Of a DNA stretch of 64,000 bases, positions 1 to 12,559 are shown one piece after another (the stretch's first letter is position 1; the number at the start of each line of letters is the position of its first letter). The notes under the pieces were generated by a model. That model was not told where the DNA came from. It made no database searches and worked only from the letters and a program-made list of their open reading frames with translations. This DNA is from Aminomonas paucivorans DSM 12260. Its GTDB lineage: Bacteria > Synergistota > Synergistia > Synergistales > Synergistaceae. The translations under genes and the position numbers were made by a program. The stretch covers positions 2,017,812 to 2,081,811 of the forward strand of contig NZ_CM001022.1 of NCBI RefSeq assembly GCF_000165795.1. Direction: 5' to 3'.

Positions 1-1010
1 TCCCGCAGGAGGGGCAGGGAAGAGCAGTGCAGCCCCCCGCCGTGCTTGCGGCACTCCTCGTAAGGGGTGGTCAGCACCGTGCAGCCTCGCTTCGTCAGCA
101 GCTCCGCCGTCCAGACCGCCGAGGCGTCCAGGATCACCTTCCCCGGGGCCACGGCCAGACAGTTGATGGCCGCTCCCCCGTCGTCCCGGAAATCCACGGG
201 AATCGCCTCGATGCCCAGCTCCGCCAGTTTTTCCAGGAACCAGAAGGGCAGCCGCTCCACCTGCACCAGGGCCTTGTCCCGGTCCACCATCAGAAGGGCC
301 CCGTCGATGTGCATGCTGTAGCCCACCAGGGGCACCTCCAGAAGCTCCGTATCCTGGTGCCGCAGGACGCACCGGAGCTGGTCCACCCCCGCGGCGTTCT
401 GCCGGGAGCTGGTGCCCACCACGGCGGTGCGCTCGTTGAGGAAGGTGAAGCTCCCTCCCTCCAGCAGCCCCGCCCCGTGGACGGTGTGGAGGATGGGCAT
501 CCCCAGCTCCGCCAGCTTGCGGGAAAGGAAGGCCTCCTCCCCCCGCCGTCCCGTCCCATAGGGTTTCCCCACGGGTCCCATGCGACCCACCACGGCTCCA
601 CCCTTGACCACGATCCCGTTGTCCCGGACGAACATGGCGTTGGGGTCCCGGGGACCTCCTTCCAGATAGACCACCTCCGTCCCGCAGCCCCGCAGGACCT
701 CCGCGAAGGCGTCGTGCTCCCTCTGCATGGCCCCCAGATCCGGCCCGCGATCGGAGCGGAAGTACCACTGTTCCTCGTCGTCGATGAGGGCGTCCAGCTC
801 CGGATCGTACCGGTCCGAGGTCATCCGCAGGATCTCCTCCCCCGGACGGTGGAGCAGCACCGTCCGCAGGGGCCCCACGTCGTCGTAGACCCCCCAGCGT
901 CGGCCCCAGACCCGGGCCTGCATGTCCTCGTCCTCGAAGGCCGGCAGGGCCCGGGAAGGGATCCTCCGGAGGACCAGATGGTAGTATTGGGCGCTGTCTC
1001 GCAGCTTCAT
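1..1010 (-). CDS. Amidinohydrolase/amidinotransferase-family enzyme (arginine deiminase/DDAH fold), 3' end beyond window
   Basis: 336 codons are visible; the gene runs off the left edge, so the C-terminus is missing. The start is the ATG at 1010, preceded by a GGGAGGGG ribosome site. Visible family landmarks are PNAMFVRDN (substrate-binding Asp region), LEGGSF, MHIDG with the catalytic His, and GGGLHCSS with the probable catalytic Cys at residue 329. The family hydrolyses or transfers guanidino groups (arginine deiminase, arginine dihydrolase, DDAH, glycine amidinotransferase). It is the last visible gene of a minus-strand operon, 31 bp after the NhaC-type antiporter, and a second enzyme of the same fold lies on the other side of that antiporter. 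The exact substrate cannot be read from sequence; an arginine-like compound is inferred. Confidence 0.85.
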   Translation of the reverse strand, partial: MKLRDSAQYYHLVLRRIPSRALPAFEDEDMQARVWGRRWGVYDDVGPLRTVLLHRPGEEILRMTSDRYDPELDALIDDEEQWYFRSDRGPDLGAMQREHDAFAEVLRGCGTEVVYLEGGPRDPNAMFVRDNGIVVKGGAVVGRMGPVGKPYGTGRRGEEAFLSRKLAELGMPILHTVHGAGLLEGGSFTFLNERTAVVGTSSRQNAAGVDQLRCVLRHQDTELLEVPLVGYSMHIDGALLMVDRDKALVQVERLPFWFLEKLAELGIEAIPVDFRDDGGAAINCLAVAPGKVILDASAVWTAELLTKRGCTVLTTPYEECRKHGGGLHCSSLPLLR

Positions 1011-1041
1011 GCTTCCCCTCCCTTTCCTTCGGACGTGCCCA

Positions 1042-2562
1042 TCAGGCTTCGTCGGGACGCCGCCGTCCCAGGATCGGTTCTCCCCTCTTGCCCAGCCAGG
1101 CGATGCCGATGCCCAGGTAGGCGGTCAGGATCGACACGATGGGGTTCATCCAGTTCAGGAACGCGTAGGGCAGGTACTCCAGGGTGGGCACTCCGAAGAG
1201 CCCCGCGTGGTAGGCCCCGCAGGAGTTCCAGGGCACCAGCACGGAGGTGATGGTGCCAGCGTCCTCCAGGCAGCGGGAGAGCATCCGGGGGTGCAGCCCC
1301 TTCTGGGCGAAGGTGGTCTTGTACATCCGCCCGGGGATCACGATGGCCAGGTACTGGTCCCCCAGAAGGATGTTGCAGGAAACGCTGGAGAGGATCACCG
1401 CCGTGACCAGGCCGCCCACGGTGCGAACCCTCGCCAGGACCTTCTCCAGGATCACATCCAGGAAACCGCACTTCTCCATGACTCCGCCGAAGGCCAAGGC
1501 GCAGAAGCTCAGGGAGACGGTCCAATTCATGGCCTGCAGCCCTCCCCGGGCGAGGAGGTCCTTGAGCATCCCTCCCACCTCCTTGGCCAGGTCCGGCCGG
1601 ATGGAGAGGTTGTTCTCTCCCAGCACCTTCAGGGCCGCGGCGGTGTCGGAGGCGTCCGCCAGGGCGGCGGACAGGGCGGGGGAATAGCCGTTCTGCAGCA
1701 CGTTCAGCATATCTGCGATCCCCACCCCCTGGAGCAACGCCATGGCGCTCCCCGCCAGAACTCCGGCCATGAGGCCGGGCAGGGCGGGGATCTTCATGGC
1801 CACCAGGGCGATGACCAGCACCGGGGGCAACAGTCCCCAGGGAGACACGTGGAACTCCCGGGCCATCACCGCCTGGATGGCCTGGATGCGCTCCACCTCC
1901 AGGGTCCCTCCGGCGAAACGCATCCCCAGTGCCAGGGCCAGGATCAGGACGATGACGTAGGTCGGGCCGGTGGTCCACAGCATGGCCCGGATGTGCTGGA
2001 ACAGGTCCGCTCCCGCCACGGCGGGGGCCAGGTTGGTGGTGTCCGACAGGGGAGACATCTTGTCCCCCAGGTAGGCCCCGGAGATGATGATGCCCGCCGC
2101 CAGGGGGGTGGGGATCTTCAGACCCGCGGCAATGCCGATGAGGGCGATCCCCACGGTTCCCGAGGTCCCCCAGGAGGATCCCGTGGCCAGGGAGACGATG
2201 GAGCAGATCAGCAGGGTGGACACCAGGAACACCCGGGGGGAGAGGATCGAAAGACCGTAGTAGATCATGCTCGGGACGATGCCCCCCTGGATCCAGGACC
2301 CCACCACGAGACCGATGGTGTACATGATCAGGATGGCCGTCATGGCCATGGTGATGCCTCCGACGATGCCTTCCTCGATGACCGCCCAGGGCCGACGGAG
2401 CACGAAGTAGCCAACCGCCGCGGCGAAGACCGTGGCCAGAAGCACGGGGATGTGGACGTCCACCTTCCACAGCAGCACCCCCGCCCCAATCACCGTCACG
2501 GAAAAAGCCACCACGATCAGCGCCTCCAGAAACGTGGGCGCCCGTCCGGTTCTCTCTGTCAT
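1042..2562 (-). CDS. NhaC-family Na+/H+ antiporter-like transporter
   Basis: A 506-residue, highly hydrophobic protein with about a dozen membrane segments. Residues about 162-181 carry the NhaC signature GAYLGDKMSPLSDTTNLAPA. A GGAGG ribosome site precedes the ATG. Members of this family exchange Na+ for H+, but some exchange organic anions or amino acids for protons or sodium. Its place between two amidinohydrolase genes in one operon suggests it moves the substrate or product of that pathway (inference), rather than serving only in pH control. The length is usual for the family and the frame is intact. Confidence 0.88.
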   Translation of the reverse strand: MTERTGRAPTFLEALIVVAFSVTVIGAGVLLWKVDVHIPVLLATVFAAAVGYFVLRRPWAVIEEGIVGGITMAMTAILIMYTIGLVVGSWIQGGIVPSMIYYGLSILSPRVFLVSTLLICSIVSLATGSSWGTSGTVGIALIGIAAGLKIPTPLAAGIIISGAYLGDKMSPLSDTTNLAPAVAGADLFQHIRAMLWTTGPTYVIVLILALALGMRFAGGTLEVERIQAIQAVMAREFHVSPWGLLPPVLVIALVAMKIPALPGLMAGVLAGSAMALLQGVGIADMLNVLQNGYSPALSAALADASDTAAALKVLGENNLSIRPDLAKEVGGMLKDLLARGGLQAMNWTVSLSFCALAFGGVMEKCGFLDVILEKVLARVRTVGGLVTAVILSSVSCNILLGDQYLAIVIPGRMYKTTFAQKGLHPRMLSRCLEDAGTITSVLVPWNSCGAYHAGLFGVPTLEYLPYAFLNWMNPIVSILTAYLGIGIAWLGKRGEPILGRRRPDEA

Positions 2563-2623
2563 GGGAAACCCTCCTTTCGGTCCTTCCGGTTCCGTTCCTT
2601 CCCGCTTTTCCTTCGGGGTGTCC

Positions 2624-3562
2624 CTAGATCGGGTCCCTCCTGAGGAACGCGGTGAGGCAGTGGGTGGCCCCCCAGGCCTTCACGATCTCCGAGAGGTCCG
2701 CCTCCACGCACTCCACCCCCGCCTCCTCCAGGAGGGCCCGGGTCCCGGGGTTCCCCGAGGGAAGCACCACCTTTCCGGGACGCAGGGTCACGAAGTTGAT
2801 CCCGAAGGTGAGCTTCACCTCCTCCACGTGGGGGTTCTCCAGGATCCGAAAGCCTCGATCGAGGAGGGGGCGGCAGACCTCGTAGGGCACCTGCCAGGGG
2901 AAGACCATGACTGTCTTCCGGTCCGGGAAGTTCATCAGCCCGTCCAGATGGGCGTGCCCGAAGGGGATGGGGAAGCGCAGGAAATCCGTCACCCCGATCT
3001 CCCGGAGTTCCCGTTCCACCTGCCGTGCCCCCGCCTCGTTTGCCCGGCAGCCCGTCCCCAGGATCACCGTCCTGCGGTCCACCCACAGGAGGCAGGCCCC
3101 CTCGAAGATCCCATCCCCGTTGACCGTCTTCAGGATGGGCACCCCCAGCCGGGCCAGGGCCTCAGCGGCGAAGCGCTCCTCCCCCCGCCGGGCCTCCATG
3201 GCGGGACGGCACACGATGGCCCCCTCGGGAGTCATGAGCACCTGATCCCGCATGAACAGGGCGTTGGGCCGGTCGGGGCGGTACCCCTCCACGTAGTGCA
3301 CCGTCACCCCGTGGGCCCGGTAGAGGTCCGCCAGCGCATCGTGCTGCCTTCGGGCCGTCTCCGGATCCACGGGGGCCTTGAAGCGCACCGCCGCAGGGTC
3401 CGTCACCCCGTCCAGCTCCGGCCCGGGCCGACGCATGAGCACCGCTTTCAGAACCCCCGCCTCGGAGTCGCAGTACCAGTCGCCCCAGTAGTCCCCCAGG
3501 CTCTCCGCAAAGTTCCGCTCGCTGGGGTACCACCGCTCCCCCCGTACCGTCACCTGCTGCAT
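2624..3562 (-). CDS. Amidinohydrolase (arginine deiminase/DDAH/arginine dihydrolase superfamily)
   Basis: A 312-residue enzyme of the guanidino-group-modifying superfamily. Visible motifs are PNALFMRDQ (about residues 99-107), FEGA with Glu154, HAHLDG with the catalytic His205, and GATHCLTA with the nucleophilic Cys302, so the triad looks complete. The ATG at 3562 has a GGAAGG site and overlaps the end of the upstream isoaspartyl-dipeptidase gene by 13 bp, implying translational coupling. Known family reactions turn arginine into citrulline or ornithine with ammonia release, or remove dimethylamine from dimethylarginine. It is only distantly similar to the paralogue at 1-1010, so the two may act in sequence or on different substrates. 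Confidence 0.87.
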   Translation of the reverse strand: MQQVTVRGERWYPSERNFAESLGDYWGDWYCDSEAGVLKAVLMRRPGPELDGVTDPAAVRFKAPVDPETARRQHDALADLYRAHGVTVHYVEGYRPDRPNALFMRDQVLMTPEGAIVCRPAMEARRGEERFAAEALARLGVPILKTVNGDGIFEGACLLWVDRRTVILGTGCRANEAGARQVERELREIGVTDFLRFPIPFGHAHLDGLMNFPDRKTVMVFPWQVPYEVCRPLLDRGFRILENPHVEEVKLTFGINFVTLRPGKVVLPSGNPGTRALLEEAGVECVEADLSEIVKAWGATHCLTAFLRRDPI

Positions 3563-4764
3563 GATCCTTCCCCCTTCCCGTCGTCCCTCAGGTCCCTCTC
3601 GAAGTAGCTGAACCGGCAGGGGCGTCCCTCTTCCAGCGCCGGTTCCCCCGCCAGGTAGACCCGCTCCAGTTCCCAGTTCTCCCCGAACACCGCCAGATCC
3701 GCGTCCGCCCCCGCCCGAAGGGCTCCCTTGCGGGGATACAGGCCCAGGCGCTTGGCCGGGTTGGCCCCCGTCAGGGCGAAAGCCGTCTCCGGGGGAAACC
3801 CTCCCCGAAGCAAGGCCTGCAGGTTTTCCAGAAGGGAATCCGTCCGCTCCAGGTACAGCCCCAGATAGGTTCCCTTCGCATCCCTCCGGGGCAGCCCCAC
3901 GTTGCCGTCGGAACTCAGGGTGATCCGTTCCGGAGCCACCCCCCCCGCCACCAGCTGCTCCACCGCCTTTGATGCCTTGACGGAAACCAGGCAGCCCCGA
4001 TCGGGTTCCAGGATGGTGCTCAGGTCCACGTTGCCCCCCCGGAGGGCATACCCCCGGGCCTGCTCCAGAAGGTCGGCGTTGGTGTTGCAGTGGGTGGGGA
4101 GGGAGCGGTCCAGGGGGACTCCGCTGCGGCGGTGCGCCTCCTCCAGGAAGGCGAAGGGATCCCCGTACTCCGCCACGTGGAGGTGCATCAGCCCGGGTTT
4201 GCCGCTCTGCAGCCCCGCCACGTACACCTCGCTGGAGAGGCGACAGAATTCCTCCAGGCTGGGATGGGAGGAGAACCGGTCCGTCAGGGCCACCTTGCAG
4301 CCCAGCACGTAGGGCAGAAACACCACGTCCTCCCCGGGGCTTCCCAGGATGGAAGGGGCGGGGAAGCGAAAATTCCCCGTGTGCATGTAGGCCCCCAAAC
4401 CCTCATCCCGGAGAGCGAGGACCTTGTAGGCCAGCGCCTTTAGGTCCTCGCATCCGTAGCCCATGCCCAGAAGCCCCACAGCGGTGGTGATCCCCGCACG
4501 AAGGAAGTGGGAGAGGAAAATCTCCGGGGTCTTGCTGGTGTACCCCTCGTCCCAGGTGGCTCCGGTGAAGTGCACGTGCCCGTCCACCAGTCCCGGGGCC
4601 GTCACCCGCCCCTCCAGGTCCGTCTCCTCCGCAGGGCACCCCGAAACCCGAAGTCCCCTTTCCATGGCCTGGATCCGTCCCCCCGCAAGCAGCAGGTCCA
4701 CGGTCCGCCACTCCCCCGTGCCCCCCGGCTCGGGGGCCACCCTCGCGTTGCGCAGGATCCTCAT
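3550..4764 (-). CDS. iadA: Isoaspartyl dipeptidase-like amidohydrolase (IadA family)
   Basis: 404 residues. An in-frame GTG at 4773 lies inside the ribosome site, so the ATG at 4764, eight bases after GGGAGG, is chosen. It is a metal-dependent TIM-barrel amidohydrolase: HVH at residues 63-65, LGCK with the likely carboxylated bridging Lys157, metal His in HLHVAEYGD and LPTHCN, and the catalytic Asp in SSDGN. The segment TPEIFLSHFLRAGITTAVG and the order of motifs match isoaspartyl dipeptidase, which splits beta-aspartyl dipeptides from protein damage or from cyanophycin. It is the first enzyme gene of the operon after the GntR regulator. Another dipeptide-like amide substrate is possible. Confidence 0.8.
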   Translation of the reverse strand: MRILRNARVAPEPGGTGEWRTVDLLLAGGRIQAMERGLRVSGCPAEETDLEGRVTAPGLVDGHVHFTGATWDEGYTSKTPEIFLSHFLRAGITTAVGLLGMGYGCEDLKALAYKVLALRDEGLGAYMHTGNFRFPAPSILGSPGEDVVFLPYVLGCKVALTDRFSSHPSLEEFCRLSSEVYVAGLQSGKPGLMHLHVAEYGDPFAFLEEAHRRSGVPLDRSLPTHCNTNADLLEQARGYALRGGNVDLSTILEPDRGCLVSVKASKAVEQLVAGGVAPERITLSSDGNVGLPRRDAKGTYLGLYLERTDSLLENLQALLRGGFPPETAFALTGANPAKRLGLYPRKGALRAGADADLAVFGENWELERVYLAGEPALEEGRPCRFSYFERDLRDDGKGEGSCSR

Positions 4765-4791
4765 GCTTTCCACCTCCCGATGATCGATCGT

Positions 4792-5505
4792 CTACTCCTC
4801 CAGAAGCGACACTCCCCCGTAGGCCCGGAGGGACTCGGAGTTGTGCAGCAGCATCGCCACGGTGGAGTGGATGTGGTCCTCCATGATCTCCTTGGCCTCG
4901 TTGGGACGGTTTTCGAAGATGGCCCGCACCAGGTCCCGATGCTCCCGGTGGCTTTTCGACCGGTCCGGATCCCGGAGCAGCTCCACCTTTCCCGCGCGTC
5001 GGAAGAAGTTGTCGAAGAACAGCACGTAGAGTTCGCAACGCCAGAAAAGCTGCTTCACCTGGTGTTCCATGTGCCGGTTTCCCGTGAGTCGGGCGATCCC
5101 CAGGTGGAGGTCCTTGTTCACCTCGTAGATCTTCGGGTCCCCGGAGAAGTAGCACTCCCGCTCCCGGAGGATCAGGTTTTCGAAGACCTCCCGCTCCTCC
5201 TCCCCGGCCTGTCGGGCCGCGTCGTAGGCCACCCAGGGCTCCGCGATGAGACGAACCCGGTAGAGATCCTCCAGGTCCTTCCGGGAAAGCCCCGGAAGCA
5301 CACAGCTCCGGCCGGTCCGGTTCTCCAGAAGCCCCTCCGCCGCCAGGCGGCGCAGGGCGTTGCGCACCGGGGTACGGCTCAGCCCCAGTTCCTCCGCCAC
5401 CTGCTGCTCCACCAAGGGAAACCCCGGCGGGATGCGCCCCTCCAGGATCAGGCGGATGACCCCCTCGTAGGCTTGCTCTTCCGCAGTGCTCTGGTCGCCC
5501 CTCAT
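4792..5505 (-). CDS. GntR-family transcriptional regulator (FadR/FCD subfamily)
   Basis: About 237 residues from the ATG at 5505; an upstream ATG at 5532 would add nine residues but has a poorer ribosome site and lies outside the conserved start. The N-terminus holds a winged helix (YEGVIRLILEGRIPPG, then SRTPVRNALRRLAAEGL), the GntR signature. The C-terminal all-helical FCD ligand domain has the expected metal/ligand His residues (LHLGIARLTGN, then a late DHIHSTV). It is first in the minus-strand operon and diverges from the cyclodeaminase gene, so it probably controls both arms in response to a pathway acid or amino acid (inference). Confidence 0.9.
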   Translation of the reverse strand: MRGDQSTAEEQAYEGVIRLILEGRIPPGFPLVEQQVAEELGLSRTPVRNALRRLAAEGLLENRTGRSCVLPGLSRKDLEDLYRVRLIAEPWVAYDAARQAGEEEREVFENLILRERECYFSGDPKIYEVNKDLHLGIARLTGNRHMEHQVKQLFWRCELYVLFFDNFFRRAGKVELLRDPDRSKSHREHRDLVRAIFENRPNEAKEIMEDHIHSTVAMLLHNSESLRAYGGVSLLEE

Positions 5506-5557
5506 CCCTCGCCCCCCCCAATTCTTAATCATTCGGTATCCCGTTTCGTATCCTGAA

Positions 5558-5585
5558 TCATTACGCAGGCCCGGCCTTCTGTCAA
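5558..5585 (-). promoter_or_regulatory. Predicted sigma70-type promoter for the left (iadA) arm
   Basis: On the minus strand, TTGACA (5580-5585) is followed after 16 bp by TAATGA (5558-5563). It would start transcription just ahead of the GntR gene. Downstream, the hexamer GGATAC occurs twice, about 12 bp apart, within 5540-5556 and is a possible regulator site. Confidence 0.6.
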
Positions 5586-5607
5586 CTTCTTTTTCCTTTC
5601 CCCAAGG

Positions 5608-5636
5608 TTGGCAAATCCCCCCGAAGGAGCTAAGGT
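5608..5636 (+). promoter_or_regulatory. Predicted sigma70-type promoter for the right (cyclodeaminase) arm
   Basis: TTGGCA (5608-5613), a 17-bp spacer and TAAGGT (5631-5636), followed 34 bp later by the ATG at 5671 with a strong GAAGGAGG site. Confidence 0.55.
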
Positions 5637-5654
5637 GAATCCACTGAATTCACC
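5634..5654. promoter_or_regulatory. Perfect inverted repeat, candidate GntR operator
   Basis: GGTGAAT (5634-5640), seven bases, then ATTCACC (5648-5654). The dyad overlaps the predicted -10 and start point of the right-arm promoter, the usual place for a repressor site. Which of the two neighbouring GntR proteins might bind is unknown. Confidence 0.5.
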
Positions 5655-5670
5655 ACGAAGGAGGGATTCC

Positions 5671-6663
5671 ATGGCCCGCATCCGCATCCTCAACGCGGCG
5701 CAGGTGGGACAGCTTCTGGTCATGAAGGACGTGGTCGAGGGGGTGGAGCGGATCTACCGGCTCTACTCCACCGGTCGGGCGGGGCTGTGGCCCACGGTGT
5801 TCCACGAGTTCGACCCGGGGGTCCGGGACATGGACATCAAGTCGGGCTACCTGGACGGGGCGGGGATCTTCGGCCTGAAGATGGTGGCCTGGTCGGCGGG
5901 CAACCCCGCCCGAGGGCTCCCCGCCCTCTCCGGGGTGGTGGTGGTGGCGGACACGGACACGGGGCTTCCCCTGGGGATCGTGGACGGCATGAGCCTCACC
6001 TCCCTGCGCACCGGGGCCGCCGGGGCGGTGGGGGCGGCCCGGCTTGCCCGGCCCGACGCGACCCGGGCCCTGATCTGCGGCACCGGGGCCCAGGGCCGGG
6101 CACAGCTGGCGGGCCTGGCGGAGGTCCTCCCCTCCCTGAAACACGTGGACGCCTCCAGCCCGGATGCGGCGGGCGCCCAAGCCTACGCGGAGGAGATGGG
6201 ACACCTCCACCCGAACCTGACGGTGCGGGCGGTGCCCTGGGAAGAACGGGGCGCGGCGGCGCAGCAGGCCCAGGTGGTGGTGGCCTGCACCCCCTCCCGG
6301 GAGGCCTACCTGAAATCGGAGTGGATCCGACCGGGAACCCACATCAACGCCATCGGCACCGACGCCCGCACCAAGCAGGAGCTGGAACCGGAGCTGGTGA
6401 GGCGCTGCCGCCTGGTGGCGGACTCCCGGGCCCAGACCCTGGACCACGGGGAGCTGTACCACGCCTATTCCGCGGGGCTGGTGCGGCGGGAGGACGTGGC
6501 GGAGATGGGAGAGGTGCTGGAGGGACTGGCCCCGGGGCGGAACTCCCCGGAGGAGATCACCCTCTTCGACAGCACCGGCATGGCCCTTCAGGACCTGATC
6601 TGCGCCCACCGGGCCCTCCAGAGGGCGGAGGAGCGGGGCGTGGGCACCCTGGTAGAACTTTAA
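5671..6663 (+). CDS. Ornithine cyclodeaminase/mu-crystallin family protein
   Basis: 330 residues from the ATG at 5671, which follows GAAGGAGG; a longer in-frame reading back to 5608 lacks a site. Family features seen are DIKSGY near residue 56, GLPLGIVDGMSLTSLRTGAAGAVGA-type substrate/NAD region (split across residues about 100-125), the Rossmann segment ALICGTGAQGRAQL near residue 135, and GTHINAIGTD followed by the catalytic-region DSRAQ. The family includes ornithine cyclodeaminase (ornithine to proline plus ammonia), lysine cyclodeaminase, ketimine reductase and alanine dehydrogenase. Being opposite two amidinohydrolases makes ornithine an attractive substrate (inference). It is 15 bp before the aminotransferase gene. 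Confidence 0.85.
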   Translation: MARIRILNAAQVGQLLVMKDVVEGVERIYRLYSTGRAGLWPTVFHEFDPGVRDMDIKSGYLDGAGIFGLKMVAWSAGNPARGLPALSGVVVVADTDTGLPLGIVDGMSLTSLRTGAAGAVGAARLARPDATRALICGTGAQGRAQLAGLAEVLPSLKHVDASSPDAAGAQAYAEEMGHLHPNLTVRAVPWEERGAAAQQAQVVVACTPSREAYLKSEWIRPGTHINAIGTDARTKQELEPELVRRCRLVADSRAQTLDHGELYHAYSAGLVRREDVAEMGEVLEGLAPGRNSPEEITLFDSTGMALQDLICAHRALQRAEERGVGTLVEL

Positions 6664-6678
6664 GAGGAGGAGAGACCC

Positions 6679-7812
6679 ATGAAGATCGCACCCTTCGGCG
6701 TGGAGCAGTGGATGAACGCCTACGAGGTCGGGGCAGACGCCAACCTGGGGGAAACCTGCGTGGACTCCCTCACCCTGGAGGGGCTGCTGGACCTCACGGG
6801 GCGGAAGGAGGAGATCCTTCGGGAACTCCTGGCCCTGCGGCTTTCCTACGGGGACATCCCGGGAAGCGACGAGCTGCGGGACCGGGTGGCGGGGCTGCAC
6901 GACCGCCAGGGACGGGAGAACGTGATGATCCTCAATGGGGGGTCCGCGGCCAACTTCCTGTCCCTGTACACCCTGGTGGAGCCGGGGGACGAGGTGGTGG
7001 CGGTCTACCCCACCTACCAGCAGCTCACGGGCATCCCGGAATCCTTCGGGGCGGTGCTGCGCACCCTGCCCCTGCGCCCGGAGCAGGGTTTCCTGCCGGA
7101 CCCGGAGGAGCTGGCCGCCCTGGTCACTTCCCGCACGAAGCTGATCTGCCTGAACAACCCCAACAACCCCACGGGGGCCCTGATGGAACGTCCCCTGCTG
7201 GAGCGGATCGTCCGGATCGCCCGGGATGCGGGAGCCTGGATCCTCTGCGACGAGGTGTACCGCTTCCTGGTGCACAATCCCAAGGTCCGGGTGCCCTCGG
7301 TGGCGGACCTCTACGAGCGGGGGGTGGTCACGGGAAGCCTTTCCAAATGCTTCTCCCTGGCGGGGCTGCGCATCGGCTGGGTCGTGGGGCCGGAGGCCTT
7401 CATCGGGGACCTGTTCTCCCACCGGGACTACACCACCATCAGCTGCGGCCGCTTGGACGACCGGCTGGGATGCCTGGCTCTGGAGCACCGGGGGGCCATC
7501 CTGGGGCGAAACCTGGCGCTGCTTCGACGCTGCGCGTCGGTCCTGGAACGCTGGGTGGACTCGGAACCCCGGGTCTCCATGGTGAAGCCCCGGGCGGGCA
7601 CCACCGCCTTCCTGCACTACGACCACAACCTGGACTCCCAGACCTTCTGCCGCCGTCTCTACGACCGGGACCGGACCCTCCTGGTGCCGGGAACCTGCTT
7701 CGACCGGGACCGGTGGCTTCGGGTGGGCTACGCCTTCGCCCCCGACGACCTGGAGACGGGGCTTGGGCGGGTGTCCTCCTTCCTGCGGCAGCTGGAGTCC
7801 GAGGGGCTGTGA
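6679..7812 (+). CDS. PLP-dependent aminotransferase, class I/II
   Basis: 377 residues with a GAGGAGGAG site before the ATG. Fold type I landmarks: NGGSAANFL (phosphate-binding region, about 86-94), NNPNNPTG (159-166), DEVY (191-194) and the Schiff-base Lys223 in SLSKCFSLAGLRIGW; a late arginine in RVGYAF binds the substrate carboxylate. The length is typical. It probably transaminates the amino acid made by the upstream enzyme, or aspartate or alanine, but specificity is not readable. It shares GTGA with the following regulator gene, so the three right-arm genes form one operon. Confidence 0.88.
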   Translation: MKIAPFGVEQWMNAYEVGADANLGETCVDSLTLEGLLDLTGRKEEILRELLALRLSYGDIPGSDELRDRVAGLHDRQGRENVMILNGGSAANFLSLYTLVEPGDEVVAVYPTYQQLTGIPESFGAVLRTLPLRPEQGFLPDPEELAALVTSRTKLICLNNPNNPTGALMERPLLERIVRIARDAGAWILCDEVYRFLVHNPKVRVPSVADLYERGVVTGSLSKCFSLAGLRIGWVVGPEAFIGDLFSHRDYTTISCGRLDDRLGCLALEHRGAILGRNLALLRRCASVLERWVDSEPRVSMVKPRAGTTAFLHYDHNLDSQTFCRRLYDRDRTLLVPGTCFDRDRWLRVGYAFAPDDLETGLGRVSSFLRQLESEGL

Positions 7813-8438
7813 GGGAGACGGAAGGGGCGGCGGAGCGGGCCTACGAGGGCCTGCTCCGCCTGATCCTCACGGAGGAGCTGGAGCCGGGGGACAACCTCCC
7901 CGCCCTGACCCTGGCGGCCCGGCTGGGCACCAGCCGCACCCCCGTGCGGGAGGCCCTGCGCCGTCTGGCGGGAGAAGGGATCGCGGAGCTGATCCCCGGC
8001 GGGGGTGCCCGCCTGGTGGACCCCACCCCTCGGGGCATCCGGGAGACCTTCGCCATCCGGGAGTGTCTGGAGGTCCTGGCGGTGCGGGAGGCGGCGGCAT
8101 ACCGGGACCCGGTGGCCCTGGCCCGGCTGGACCAGTGCCTCGGGGAACCGGAGGAGGTCCCCCTGGACCCCCTGGAGGCCTTCCGACGCTCCCTGGCCTT
8201 CCATCTCCTCCTGTCGAAGGCTTCGGGGAACCGGGAACTGCCCCGGGTTCTGGGGGGCGTCCTGGCCCAGGCCCAGGTATTCCTCCTCTTCTACCCTCCT
8301 CCTCCCGGGGAGACGGGAGCCTCCCGAGAGGAACACCGGCGGATCCTGGAGGCGATCCGTCGGGGAGACCCGGAGGGGGCGGAGGCCCGGATGCGGGACC
8401 ACCTGCGTCTGGGGATGGAGGAGCTGGGGGCCCCCTGA
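7809..8438 (+). CDS. GntR-family transcriptional regulator (FCD subfamily), second copy
   Basis: 209 residues. The GTG start at 7809 overlaps the stop of the aminotransferase gene as GTGA. The winged helix includes AYEGLLRLILTEELEPGD and TSRTPVREALRRLAGEGI; the FCD domain follows with RECLEVLAVREAA and a terminal region rich in acidic and His residues (EEHRRILEAI, RMRDHLRLGM). It is shorter than the regulator at 4792 but starts with the same AYEG.L.LIL pattern, suggesting an old duplication. It likely gives feedback control of the right arm or shared control of the divergent region (inference). Confidence 0.87.
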   Translation: MRETEGAAERAYEGLLRLILTEELEPGDNLPALTLAARLGTSRTPVREALRRLAGEGIAELIPGGGARLVDPTPRGIRETFAIRECLEVLAVREAAAYRDPVALARLDQCLGEPEEVPLDPLEAFRRSLAFHLLLSKASGNRELPRVLGGVLAQAQVFLLFYPPPPGETGASREEHRRILEAIRRGDPEGAEARMRDHLRLGMEELGAP

Positions 8439-8451
8439 GGGGGCCCCCACC

Positions 8452-8919
8452 CTACAGCATCCGGCGAACGTCCTCCAGGGCCATGGAGGTCCTTTCGGCA
8501 ATGGCCTCCGCCCCCATGCCCCCTTCGGCCAGACGGCGCACCAGGGTTTCCAGGGGCTCCGCCACCTCCACCAGATTGCCCTCCGGGTCCTCCACCCGCA
8601 GGGAGCGCTGTCCCCAGGGGGCCTCGTGAACCCCCTGCACCCACCGCACCCCGGCCGTCCGGAGTCTCTCCGCGAAGGCGTCCAGCTCCGGGGTCTCGAA
8701 GTACAGCTCCAGGTCCCGCCCTCCCCGAGGGACCGGGCCTTCTCCGGTGAGGGCCAGGGCGGCCTCCCGCAGCCAGAGGGAGAGCCCCCCCTCGAACCCC
8801 ACGCAGGGCCCGTAGTCCGTCACGACCTTCATGCCGAAAAGACCCTCGTAGAACCTTCGAGAAGCTTCCAGATCCCCCACCAGCAGCACCGAGCCCCCGT
8901 ATCGAGGTGTTTCGCCCAT
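8452..8919 (-). CDS. VOC-superfamily (glyoxalase/bleomycin-resistance fold) protein
   Basis: 155 residues from the ATG at 8919, preceded by GGGGGGAAGG; a GTG at 8934 would place the start inside that site. The N-terminal beta-alpha-beta-beta-beta unit reads SVLLVGDLEASRRFYEGLFGMKV, the classic VOC opening, and the second unit ends VEDPEGNLVEVAEPLE, holding the metal Glu. An extra C-terminal helical segment of about 35 residues is not part of the core fold. VOC proteins include glyoxalases, dioxygenases and antibiotic-binding proteins; no substrate can be assigned. It converges with the GntR gene, 13 bp apart. Confidence 0.82.
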   Translation of the reverse strand: MGETPRYGGSVLLVGDLEASRRFYEGLFGMKVVTDYGPCVGFEGGLSLWLREAALALTGEGPVPRGGRDLELYFETPELDAFAERLRTAGVRWVQGVHEAPWGQRSLRVEDPEGNLVEVAEPLETLVRRLAEGGMGAEAIAERTSMALEDVRRML

Positions 8920-9042
8920 GTCCTTCCCCCCCACCGCAGATGTGCCCCCATCCTACCCCACGGAAGAACCGGCGGGGAGGGGAAGGGGCAGGGAACTCTC
9001 CCTCCTGATCCTCTTCCTGCGCTGCCTCATCAGGGGGATAAT

Positions 9043-9055
9043 GGACCCATTCTCT
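9043..9055 (+). promoter_or_regulatory. Possible -10 region upstream of the TPR gene
   Basis: A GATAAT hexamer lies about 35 bp before the TPR gene start, with TTCCTG 17 bp upstream as a poor -35. Weak; listed because no other promoter-like sequence is visible in this gap. Confidence 0.25.
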
Positions 9056-9076
9056 CCGAGGAGGCGGTGATCCGTC

Positions 9077-10366
9077 ATGACCCGACGTTTTTCGTGGCTC
9101 TGCGCGACCCTTCTGGGAAGTCTCCTCCTTGCCCCGATTCCCGTCGCGGCGGCCCCCCTCACCCCCGAGGCGAACTACCGCAAGGCCCTGGACTATCAGG
9201 CCGCCTACCCCGGGGAATCCTGGACCATCAAGAACCTGGGATACGCCCTGTTGGCCCTGGGGAAGGGGGACGAAGCAGCCCGGGCCTTCCGTCTGTACCT
9301 GTACGACGAACCCCGGGACCCGGGAGGCTGGACGGGGCTGGGCTACTCCCTGGCGGCGGCGAATCGTCCCGCCGAGGCGGTGGAGGCCTTCCTGAAAGGG
9401 GAGGGTCTGCAACCCGGCAGCGCCGACCCCAACCAGATGGGGTACCTGTACCGCCTCCTGGGGCGTACCGACGACGCCGTCGCCTGGTTCGACCGGTCCC
9501 TGGCCCGAGACCCCCGGGACCTCCAGGCCCTGCTGGGCAAGGCCTACGCCTACGGGGAGGCGAAGCGCACTGAGGAGGCCGCGGCGGCCTTCCGGGCAGC
9601 CTTGGAAGCAGACCCGGCCCGGGGAGACTACGTGAGCCTGGGCTACGCCCTGGGGACCCTGGGGCGGTTCGACGAGGCGGAAGGGGCGTTTCAGGCGGGG
9701 CTGGACCGGGGACAGGAACCCTTCCCGCTTCTCCTGGGGCTGGGCTATGCCCGCATGGGGCAGAAGCGCTTCCCCGAGGCGGCGGAGGCCTTCCGCAAGG
9801 CCCGAGCTCTGCGCCCGGAGGACCCGGAGGCGGCGGCCAAGCTGGGCTACGCCGCTGGCGCCGCAGGGCTGCACCAGGAAGCCCTGGAGGCCTTCCTGAC
9901 GGTGCGCCGGGTCGCCCCGGAGCAGTGTCCCTGGACCAGCCTGGGCTACGCCTTCCAGGCCCTGGGGCGATACCCCGAGGCGGCGGAGGCCTTCGAGGAG
10001 GCGGTCCGCAAATCCCCCGACGACCCGGAACCCCTGAAGGGGCTGGGGTACACCCGGCTCTCCCAGGGTAAGACCGGGGAAGCCCTGACGGCCTTCCAGC
10101 GGCTCCTGACCCTGCGCCCCGACGGGGAAAGCTACGCCGCCCTGGGCCGAGCCTTGGGGGAACGGAAGGTCCCCGGCGAGGCGGCGGAGGCCTTCCGTCG
10201 AGGCCTGGCCCTCGCCCCGGGCAACCCGAACCTGGCGGAGGGGCTGGCCCGCGCCCTGGCGGCCTCGAGGAATCCCAAGGCGGCCCGGGAAGCCCTGAGA
10301 ATCCTCCTGGGGCTGGACCCGGCCCGGGGGGAGCGGGTGGCCCGGGAGCTGGGGCTGAAGCCCTAG
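9077..10366 (+). CDS. Exported tetratricopeptide-repeat (TPR) protein
   Basis: 429 residues with GAGGAGG upstream of the ATG. Residues 1-26 are a Sec signal peptide (basic MTRR, hydrophobic core, cleavage near VAAA). The rest is about ten TPR-like units, each roughly 34-36 residues, with a recurrent LGYALxxLGR first helix and an EAAEAFRxAL second helix. The repeats are unusually alike, especially the LGYA motif, so they probably grew by tandem duplication. TPR arrays bind other proteins; here it would sit in the periplasm, perhaps as an envelope assembly scaffold. No enzymatic domain is seen. Its end overlaps the convergent acyltransferase gene by 4 bp. Confidence 0.85.
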   Translation: MTRRFSWLCATLLGSLLLAPIPVAAAPLTPEANYRKALDYQAAYPGESWTIKNLGYALLALGKGDEAARAFRLYLYDEPRDPGGWTGLGYSLAAANRPAEAVEAFLKGEGLQPGSADPNQMGYLYRLLGRTDDAVAWFDRSLARDPRDLQALLGKAYAYGEAKRTEEAAAAFRAALEADPARGDYVSLGYALGTLGRFDEAEGAFQAGLDRGQEPFPLLLGLGYARMGQKRFPEAAEAFRKARALRPEDPEAAAKLGYAAGAAGLHQEALEAFLTVRRVAPEQCPWTSLGYAFQALGRYPEAAEAFEEAVRKSPDDPEPLKGLGYTRLSQGKTGEALTAFQRLLTLRPDGESYAALGRALGERKVPGEAAEAFRRGLALAPGNPNLAEGLARALAASRNPKAAREALRILLGLDPARGERVARELGLKP

Positions 10367-11460
10367 AAGACCCTCCTCAGCCCGGGAAGACGCCGAAGCA
10401 CCCGCAGCGACAGGAGCTGCCCCACCCAGAGGGTGGCTCCCACGGCCAGGAGGAACTTGACCCAGGGCGACCAGGGCAGGGGGACCAGCAGCGCCTCCAG
10501 GGGCAGGAGGAGCATCTGGTGCAGCCAATAGAGGCCGTAGGACCCCCGGGCTGCCTCGGAGACCCGGGCGCTCGGGGCGTCGCCGAACCGGCGCAACAAC
10601 GCCGCCAGGGCCAGGGGGACCAGCACCGCCGCCCCCTCGTGGGCCAGGGCGTACAGCCACAGCCCCCCTCCTCGGGGCGCTTCGGGCAGACGGAGCCGCA
10701 GGACCACCGACAGGAGCAGAAGCAGGGTCGCCGCTCCCCCCAGTCCCGCCAGGCAGCCCGGGGAGGGGGGGCGTTCGAGCCAGCGGTTCCGCCAGGCCAG
10801 GGCCCCCAGCAGGAAGAGGAAGAAGTATCCCCCCACCCGGAGGGGCTGGAAGACCAGCACGTAGGCCGGGTGGACCCACACGTCCAGGGGATAGCGGGTT
10901 CCCAGAGCGCCGAACCACAGGGCCGCACCGACGACGCAGCAGGCCAGGGGCAGCCCGATCGGCCGGGGCTCGGGGGTCCGCTCCCCGAGGCGCCTCCCCA
11001 GGGGGAGGAAGAGCAGGAAGAAGGCCAGCAGCACCCCCAGGAACCAGAAGTGGGCCTGCTGGTACGCGGGGCCCAGGAAGACGGTCCGGTAGAAGGCCCC
11101 CAAGTGCCCCACGGGGTACCCCAGCGCCAGCAGGCTGGCCCGGGCGAACCAGGGGGCGACGAGGAGGCTCCCCAAGACCCAGGGGATCCCCAGCCGCAGG
11201 GCCTTCTCCCCCAGGAACCCCCGCGTTCCCCGCCTGGCCAGGGAGGGGGGGGCGAAGTACCCCGCCGCCAGGAACATCCCCGGCATGAGGAAAACGTCCA
11301 GGGCCAGCACCATCAGGGTGAAGGCCGGAGACCGCACGGGATCCTGGACATACCACCACCCCGGGGCCCCGACCATGTAGGTCATGGCCCCGTGCAGCGC
11401 CACCACTCCGTAGACCGTCCAGGTGCGGAAACGGTCCCCATGCGCCAGGCGCTCCTCCAC
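10363..11460 (-). CDS. Acyltransferase family 3 integral membrane protein
   Basis: 365 residues, GTG start at 11460 after GGGAGGCGAGGGG. About ten membrane segments are visible. Near the N-terminus the arrangement VVALHGAMTYMV, then VFLMPGMFLAAGYFA followed by a basic loop, and GSYGLYWLHQMLLLP near the C-terminus match the acyltransferase-3/OpgC-like family, which moves acyl groups onto sugars of glycans, lipids or antibiotics. No polysaccharide genes lie nearby, so its substrate is unknown. It appears to be a single-gene unit. Confidence 0.8.
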   Translation of the reverse strand: MEERLAHGDRFRTWTVYGVVALHGAMTYMVGAPGWWYVQDPVRSPAFTLMVLALDVFLMPGMFLAAGYFAPPSLARRGTRGFLGEKALRLGIPWVLGSLLVAPWFARASLLALGYPVGHLGAFYRTVFLGPAYQQAHFWFLGVLLAFFLLFLPLGRRLGERTPEPRPIGLPLACCVVGAALWFGALGTRYPLDVWVHPAYVLVFQPLRVGGYFFLFLLGALAWRNRWLERPPSPGCLAGLGGAATLLLLLSVVLRLRLPEAPRGGGLWLYALAHEGAAVLVPLALAALLRRFGDAPSARVSEAARGSYGLYWLHQMLLLPLEALLVPLPWSPWVKFLLAVGATLWVGQLLSLRVLRRLPGLRRVF

Positions 11461-11491
11461 GGCCCCTCGCCTCCCTTCACGATGGGGGACG

Positions 11492-12559
11492 CTATTTCAG
11501 GTGCAGGAACAGGGGGATCACCTCAAGGGCGATGAGGAGGATGACGATCCACTCCAGCACCGTGGAGCGGCTGGTGTGGATCTCCCCCTCCATGAGGTCG
11601 CAGGCCTCCTTCATGGCCCGGAGCTTCTCCTCCACATTGGCGAGCCACTGGCCGGTGCGGAAGATCCGCAGTGCCCGGTTGTAGACCTGGGCGTAGTACA
11701 CGTCCTCGGTGACCCGCACGGAGGAGGTGAGGTGGTCCGTGGCCAGCCGGGTCTCCAACATCAGCTTCATGGCCCGTCGGGTGAGTTCCCGGTAGCGCTT
11801 GGTGAAGAGCACCTCCCAGACGGTGGACTTCTTGTCCATCTCCCGGTAGAGGGCCCGGAGCTTGTCGTTGAGGGTCTCGTCGTAGTAGCGGGCCTCCAGC
11901 ACCTGGGCCACGGCGTACTCCACCAGCAGCAGGATGTCCACGGGGTCCGCGTCGTCCACCACCAGGGCGTTGTCGTAGTTCAGCACCACCAGGTCGTTCT
12001 CGAAGAAGGAGAGGCTGTTCTCGCAGAGCAGGGCGGTCTGCTGGCCGCTCAGGGAACGGGACTCCCCGTGGAGCATGGCCACCAGCTCCGGGAACTCCTC
12101 CAGATTCTCCCGGCGAATGGGCCGGTCGGTCCTGCGGAGCACGTAGAAGGCGAACTCCTCCTCGAAGCCCTCGAAGTCGTGGGCTCCCACCACCGCATCT
12201 CCCATGACCCCCAGGATCTGCCGCAGCTCCCGGTCCAGCAGCTCGTCCACCCGGGGGTCGTAGTCCAGCTTCAGGGCTCGGTCGATGAAATCTTCCTGGG
12301 GCAGATCCCGGACGGGGAAGTGGGCCACCAGGGCCACCACCCCCACCTCGTAGAACCGGGCCCCCAGGCGCACCCGCTCCCGCCCCGTCTCGAAGGAGGA
12401 CTCCCGCTCCCCCAGCTCCACCACCATGGGGGGCCGGACCAGTTCGATGGATTGGATCTGGGCGCGGCTCAGGGGCTGCCGCACCGGAAGGCGCCCCTCG
12501 AACATGGAGGGGGCCAGGGCTTCCAGACGGATCTCCTCCGCCACGTCGTAGAGTTTCAT
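11492..12559 (-). CDS. RMD1/DUF155-family protein with C-terminal membrane anchor
   Basis: 355 residues from the ATG at 12559; a GTG two codons upstream (12565) sits seven bases after GGAAGG and could be the true start. The central region with ALVVDDADPVDILLLVEYAVAQVLEARYYD, read in parts, and the later helical region with EVIRRTGQ-like spacing match the DUF155/RMD1 family. The end, LEWIVILLIALEVIPLF, is a single membrane anchor. Eukaryotic relatives act in mitochondria and meiotic division; the bacterial role is not known. It diverges from the histidine kinase across a 184-bp gap with a palindrome. Confidence 0.8.
   Translation of the reverse strand: MKLYDVAEEIRLEALAPSMFEGRLPVRQPLSRAQIQSIELVRPPMVVELGERESSFETGRERVRLGARFYEVGVVALVAHFPVRDLPQEDFIDRALKLDYDPRVDELLDRELRQILGVMGDAVVGAHDFEGFEEEFAFYVLRRTDRPIRRENLEEFPELVAMLHGESRSLSGQQTALLCENSLSFFENDLVVLNYDNALVVDDADPVDILLLVEYAVAQVLEARYYDETLNDKLRALYREMDKKSTVWEVLFTKRYRELTRRAMKLMLETRLATDHLTSSVRVTEDVYYAQVYNRALRIFRTGQWLANVEEKLRAMKEACDLMEGEIHTSRSTVLEWIVILLIALEVIPLFLHLK

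Follow-up and report, generated by a model that had tools for sequence, protein, structure and literature searches.

A divergent two-arm locus of Aminomonas paucivorans comprising a putative operon for an arginine-like guanidino compound and a separate predicted transdeamination unit

The window analysed here is a 64,000-nucleotide stretch (bases 2017812–2081811) of the complete 2.63 Mb genome of Aminomonas paucivorans DSM 12260 (G000), and its left end carries two divergent gene units (Table 1). Arm 1, on the minus strand, encodes a GntR-FCD regulator (GntR1), an amidohydrolase related to the isoaspartyl dipeptidase IadA, two guanidine-modifying enzymes (DDAHa and DDAHb) and an NhaC-type carrier; arm 2, on the plus strand, encodes a protein of the OCD/mu-crystallin family, an aminotransferase and GntR2. 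A preliminary description had read both arms as one pathway from beta-aspartyl-arginine (beta-Asp-Arg), the cyanophycin dipeptide, or from a related guanidino compound, to proline. The open reading frame list and domain searches place all the genes it named where it had put them, in two divergent units, each with one GntR regulator as described (GntR1 first in arm 1, GntR2 last in arm 2). The sequence shows the gene content, the operon order, the loss of beta-aspartyl recognition residues, the retention of guanidine-hydrolase residues, the independence of the arms and a dedicated operator. We conclude that the locus is not a cyanophycin-dipeptide pathway and that its arms are independent, arm 1 most likely handling a modified arginine-like compound.

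Table 1. Predicted genes and regulatory elements of the two arms, in window coordinates.
Feature	Position	Strand	Remarks
DDAHa, ADI/DDAH superfamily guanidine-modifying Cys hydrolase	1..1010	-	last gene of arm 1
NhaC-family antiporter, inferred amino-acid/guanidino-acid exchanger	1042..2562	-	TIGR00931, 460.7 bits
DDAHb, second guanidine-modifying Cys hydrolase	2624..3562	-	33% identical to DDAHa; checked catalytic residues kept
IadA-family (M38) amidohydrolase, probably neofunctionalised; metal ligands kept, residues for beta-aspartyl recognition replaced	3550..4773	-	in-frame ATG at 4764
GntR1 (GntR-FCD regulator), first gene of arm 1	4792..5532	-	60% orthologue, same position in L054
Sigma-70-like promoter match TTGACA-17-AATGAT, positioned to drive arm 1	5557..5585	-	10/12, consensus match only
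Operator-like palindrome GGTGAATCCACTGAATTCACC, upstream of arm 2	5634..5654	.	core TGAATYCASTGAATTCA
OCD/mu-crystallin family oxidoreductase, nearest archaeal alanine dehydrogenase and imine reductases	5671..6663	+	
Pyridoxal phosphate (PLP) fold-type I aminotransferase (PRK07324 type; relatives GntC, VioD, PDB 3op7)	6679..7812	+	
GntR2 (GntR-FCD regulator), last gene of arm 2	7809..8438	+	start inferred

Arm 1 is tightly packed, its amidohydrolase and DDAHb genes overlapping by 13 bases. The stop of DDAHa lies 10 bases beyond the left window edge (the reading frame is listed as 3–1010), and the gene is complete as L003:17803-18822 (339 aa). The order GntR1-IadA-DDAHb-NhaC-DDAHa is kept in another genome (L054) at 59–78% identity, and this arrangement is far above chance. 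In arm 2 the probable start of GntR2 is the GTG at 7809, overlapping the aminotransferase stop (GTGA overlap). No RNA family or riboswitch reached its gathering threshold within positions 1–12000.

The nearest solved relatives of the arm 1 amidohydrolase are isoaspartyl dipeptidases, and its domain call is Amidohydro_1/isoaspartyl-dipeptidase-like; against the equivalog model TIGR01975 it scores 246.6 bits, below the cut-off of 331.25. Among 188 Synergistota, close relatives were found only in G006 (60%) and G146 (54%), the next best match reaching 41%. A DDAHb-profile scan added a fourth member, located directly upstream of DDAHb in a Bacillota metagenome-assembled genome (MAG; L113), and a profile search added a fifth from another Bacillota MAG, also with DDAHb (L213). 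In an alignment of 58 sequences the five formed one clade with a support of 1.0, and they were compared, in E. coli numbering, with the 53 other IadA sequences. The metal ligands H68, H70, K162, H201 and H230 are kept in all five, as is Asp285. E77, T106, Y137, R169, R233 and S289, each kept in 52–53 of the 53 other IadAs, are replaced throughout the clade (E77 by D, T106 by M/L/F, Y137 by F, R169 by F/Y, R233 by T/W and S289 by G/A), the window protein carrying D, M, F, F, T and G at E77, T106, Y137, R169, R233 and S/C289. E. coli IadA binds its substrate through E77, T106 and R233 (PMC10206079); the beta-isoaspartyl ligand of CpsIadA is contacted by Tyr140 (E. coli Tyr137), Thr109, Glu80, Arg173, Arg237 and Cys297, and a Tyr to Phe exchange strongly lowers its catalysis (PMC5517026). 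Because all six tested recognition residues are replaced, a beta-aspartyl dipeptide is an unlikely substrate, and on the simplest reading the protein is probably an IadA paralogue that has kept its hydrolytic centre and acts on a new substrate. G146 and G189 each hold a second, canonical-range IadA homologue in addition to the clade member. DDAHb was found in all five clade genomes, clustered with the IadA-like gene in four and on another contig in the fifth.

Both DDAHa and DDAHb retain the ADI-type motif PNxxFxRD, the Glu, the HxD and the Cys, and their RRGEE and GxRxN motifs align with the carboxylate-binding Arg residues of PaDDAH. Across 143 homologues N100, R105, D106, H205, D207, R125 and R173 are invariant, as is C302 wherever the end of the protein is present; the exceptions among these guanidine-modifying proteins are an Asp for Glu154 in 11, one at Arg126, and one fragment lacking its end. 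The preliminary description had called the pair amidinohydrolases; they are Cys-dependent members of the ADI/DDAH superfamily and not metal ureohydrolases. Catalytic loss in one of the two was considered and rejected, the catalytic residues being intact in both. A structure model of DDAHb (pLDDT 86) gave TM-scores of 0.85 to 2-nitroimidazole nitrohydrolase (nnhA), 0.80 to ADI and 0.87 (target length) to DDAH. The protein scores 68.1 bits against arcA (TIGR01078, cut-off 489.1) and 99.5 bits against dimethylargininase (NF045660, cut-off 340); with all equivalog cut-offs missed, it probably acts on an arginine-like amino acid, which is not necessarily arginine itself. Since two canonical ArcA genes already lie elsewhere in the genome, one adjoining an OTCace gene, a modified arginine is the more probable substrate of arm 1. 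Free arginine is already provided for by these genes, on which we rejected the idea that arm 1 serves an arginine deiminase pathway. A second DDAHb/DDAHa pair is present in the genome (G000:C1:2446665-2448609; L077:9665-11618), where its neighbours encode an MBL-fold protein, a TRZ/ATZ-type amidohydrolase and Leu-type ABC substrate-binding proteins.

Among the 188 Synergistota, 40 carry DDAHb-type genes (E <= 1e-15), which are also widespread in Bacilli and Clostridia. They are often found as pairs of paralogues, with amino-acid ABC importers, NhaC-like carriers and sigma-54 regulators nearby, together with one varying hydrolase, which may be a member of the IadA-like clade, a TRZ/ATZ amidohydrolase, an Amidohydro_3 protein with a PuuE-like protein, or an M28/M20 peptidase-like protein. 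Neighbourhood genes were called with a purpose-written heuristic caller. A search of other Synergistota for the same neighbourhood, suggested in the preliminary description, recovered arm 1 with its gene order identical in G006 and its genes in G146, where DDAHb follows DDAHa and the regulator differs; in the other loci examined, 90 centred on DDAH and 18 on OCD, the two arms were not found together. In G188 an ABC importer comes after DDAHb. Bacillus-type genomes (L115-L121, L124) have guanidine-hydrolase genes flanking an amino-acid ABC importer; there are two copies in L116-L121 and in L124, and the active-site Glu is Asp in the copy that lies upstream of the importer. Clostridia including Emergencia (L134, L142, L145, L148, L150, L154, L179) carry such genes mostly in tandem, with PrdR-like sigma-54 regulators, NhaC-like carriers, and M28 peptidase-like or Amidohydro_3 plus PuuE-like partners.

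The carrier of arm 1 passes the Na+/H+ antiporter NhaC model TIGR00931 (460.7 bits, cut-off 370) and stays below the cut-off of NF052307, the NhaC-like ArcD arginine/ornithine exchanger (390.8 of 650 bits). An exchanger role is plausible because an NhaC-type protein is known to carry out arginine/ornithine exchange in the arginine deiminase (ADI) cluster of Halobacterium (PMC5300872).

In arm 2, the OCD protein scores highest with archaeal alanine dehydrogenase (196 bits), followed by Delta1-pyrroline-2-carboxylate reductase (170 bits), iminosuccinate reductase (135 bits) and ornithine cyclodeaminase (101 bits, a match covering residues 67–330 only). It also misses the ornithine cyclodeaminase cut-offs PRK07589 (129.8 of 350 bits) and PRK08291 (222.6 of 408 bits). 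On these scores the protein is closer to alanine dehydrogenase and imine reductases than to ornithine cyclodeaminase. The aminotransferase reaches 462.2 bits against PRK07324 (cut-off 476; 519.1 for its relative in L199) and 301 and 260 bits against GntC and VioD, respectively, which act on hydroxyarginines. A transaminase together with an alanine-dehydrogenase-like enzyme fits transdeamination.

Eight genomes were searched for the palindrome core TGAATYCASTGAATTCA, one mismatch being allowed. G000, G021, G022 and G023 have one occurrence each, in every case directly upstream of OCD; one further match, with one mismatch, was found elsewhere, in G122, and the reversed control gave zero matches. 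Arm 1 is absent at the operator-OCD site of G021, G022 and G023. Arm 2 is predicted to have its own dedicated palindromic operator. None of 90 DDAH-centred loci held an OCD match, and none of 18 OCD-centred loci held a DDAHa, DDAHb, NhaC or IadA-like gene; an aminotransferase of the same family was present in 12 of those 18. From sequence evidence we regard the arms as independent transcription units, not one pathway. A single regulon spanning both was rejected because of the dedicated arm 2 operator and the linkage counts.

Genes resembling threonine ammonia-lyase and homoserine dehydrogenase also recur next to OCD, as do, in some genomes, ornithine-racemase-like genes, for which NF040742 gives 371 bits, below its cut-off of 480. 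Six Synergistota loci (L203, L204, L205, L206, L208, L209) combine OCD-family genes with the threonine-ammonia-lyase-like and homoserine-dehydrogenase-like genes in what may be an undescribed amino-acid cluster, which in L203, L206 and L209 also holds the ornithine-racemase-like gene. The only neighbourhood of an aminotransferase and a guanidine hydrolase noticed outside the window is L073:7746-9749, in which a 256-aa DDAH-like gene is divergent to a PRK07324-type aminotransferase, beside an Lrp-like regulator. Flanking the two arms are a glyoxalase/bleomycin-resistance-fold protein (window 8452-8934, minus strand), convergent with GntR2, and, immediately beyond the left window edge, a GntR3 operon in convergent orientation (L003:14051-17726) with an Asp/Glu-racemase-like frame and two saccharopine-dehydrogenase-like genes, the first of which encodes only 236 aa and has a partial C-terminal domain. 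Saccharopine-dehydrogenase relatives also adjoin DDAH pairs in G009 and G010.

We see an even chance that the locus consists of back-to-back independent units, arm 1 being an operon for an arginine-like guanidino compound with a repurposed amidohydrolase and arm 2 a separate transdeamination unit. Arm 1 would be substrate-induced and serve an arginine-like guanidino amino acid with an extra amide or cyclic-amide group, which the NhaC-type carrier would exchange for product. The amide may be opened or removed by the binuclear-metal amidohydrolase, read here as an IadA paralogue whose substrate pocket has been rebuilt, and DDAHb and DDAHa may then hydrolyse the guanidinium via a Cys-thiouronium intermediate to yield a citrulline-type ureido acid together with ammonia or an alkylamine. 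The arm 2 aminotransferase would pass an amino group to a keto acid, for example pyruvate, from which the alanine-dehydrogenase-like enzyme would free it as ammonia.

Several points weigh against this interpretation. Functional reasoning is by homology throughout, for the substrates, the direction of transport and both reaction schemes alike, and a compound class is proposed rather than a specific substrate; the need for two intact guanidine hydrolases is left without explanation. No canonical IadA was found in the A. paucivorans genome, and the divergent enzyme could in principle fill that role, an objection softened by the 111 of 188 Synergistota searched that give no match to the IadA family at E <= 1e-20. 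The structure model of the IadA-like protein (pLDDT 46, from a shallow alignment) was too poor and was not used. Locus counts are not independent trials, because many loci are MAG fragments, the genomes are related and several pairs are near-duplicates. The ornithine-racemase-like gene beside OCD in some relatives also makes an ornithine role possible for arm 2.

The chain originally proposed, in which the IadA-like enzyme releases aspartate and arginine from beta-Asp-Arg, the deiminases convert arginine to citrulline or ornithine, and OCD forms proline from ornithine, draws on the family-level annotation of each gene, on IadA as the nearest solved homologue of the amidohydrolase in a genome with no second IadA, and on the Orr-like racemase adjoining some OCD orthologues. 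We hold it to be very improbable. The six tested beta-aspartyl recognition residues are replaced clade-wide, TIGR01975 is missed, and the genome gave no match to Peptidase_S51, the cyanophycinase family (positive in 10 of 14 control genomes), and no Asparaginase_2 protein. The cyanophycin link was rejected on the pocket residues and these missing genes, although a cyanophycinase is not strictly needed for scavenging a dipeptide. The passage from dipeptide to proline fails as well, given arms that are unlinked in other loci, the arm 2 operator, and an OCD protein nearest alanine dehydrogenase and imine reductases. What survives of the substrate claim is the related guanidino compound, for arm 1, where both hydrolases keep the checked catalytic and carboxylate-binding residues.

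Arm 1 might instead degrade methylated arginines (asymmetric dimethylarginine, ADMA, or monomethylarginine, MMA) or peptide-derived arginine with hydrolases of DDAH or ADI function, the IadA-like protein being an unrelated peptidase or an N-acyl-arginine amidohydrolase that supplies the free amino acid. ADI and DDAH are indeed the nearest characterised folds, the carboxylate-binding RRGEE and GxRxN motifs are retained, and M20/M28 peptidase-like genes adjoin DDAHb in Bacillota; the NCBIfam cut-offs for dimethylargininase (99.5 vs 340) and arcA (68.1 vs 489) are widely missed, however, and with two canonical ArcA already in the genome we rate this account as possible, though on the unlikely side. 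A cyclic guanidine of creatinine-, hydantoin- or hydroimidazolone-like type, opened by the amidohydrolase and then cleaved in linear form by the guanidine hydrolases, seems unlikely. DDAHb recurs beside TRZ/ATZ amidohydrolase, Amidohydro_3, PuuE-like and Asp/Glu/hydantoin-racemase-like genes, which are enzyme types known to open the rings of cyclic ureides and amidines or to deaminate them, and the superfamily of IadA includes hydantoinase and imidazolonepropionase; yet these neighbours vary between lineages, no known creatinine or hydantoin gene is present at cut-off, and direct support is absent. More doubtful again is the idea that the IadA-derived clade has a new activity that opens a cyclic or acylated arginine derivative, which the paired guanidine hydrolases would then cleave to citrulline and an amino acid; arginine hydroimidazolone from glycated protein, converted to a carboxyalkyl-arginine, may be an example. 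If true, this would be an undescribed anaerobic route for modified arginine. Our literature searches found nothing on the anaerobic breakdown of ADMA or hydroimidazolone by genes of this kind, and no paper on the arginine metabolism of A. paucivorans.

For annotation, the automatic label "isoaspartyl dipeptidase" would probably mislead for the five-member clade, whose altered pocket, invariant metal site and recurring partner gene make it a small, testable target for enzyme discovery. The guanidine-hydrolase pairs of Synergistota, Bacilli and Clostridia suggest a recurrent catabolic module with varied partner hydrolases, apparently undescribed. A false two-arm pathway is also removed, adjacency in one genome having misled.

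Compared with known systems, the amidohydrolase shares full-length homology, the two-metal site and the catalytic Asp285 with IadA (M38; E. coli 1onw, Colwellia 5xgw, LmIadA 8dqn), but differs in every tested substrate-contact residue, in its sub-cut-off TIGR01975 score and in its guanidine-hydrolase gene context. DDAHa and DDAHb have the fold, the Cys-His-Glu/Asp set, PNxxFxRD and the carboxylate-binding Arg motifs in common with ArcA, DDAH and nnhA; they are only about 20% identical to these, miss the equivalog cut-offs, and occur as paralogue pairs with transporters and amidohydrolases, with no arcB or arcC nearby. As in the Halobacterium ADI cluster, an NhaC family carrier is clustered with guanidine hydrolases, although the window carrier stays below the ArcD cut-off of NF052307. 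The OCD protein shares full-length homology, a conserved Lys and Asp and its best solved-relative scores with archaeal alanine dehydrogenase, the iminosuccinate reductase BhcD and Delta1-pyrroline-2-carboxylate reductase, but lies below all equivalog cut-offs. The aminotransferase invites comparison with ArcT, GntC and VioD through its scores against PRK07324 (just under the cut-off), GntC and VioD, whereas its conserved neighbourhoods lack a hydroxylase or deiminase. It may group with ArcT; the ArcTs of different species do not all have one function, and that of L. lactis was proposed to be an arginine-pyruvate transaminase (PMC5300872).

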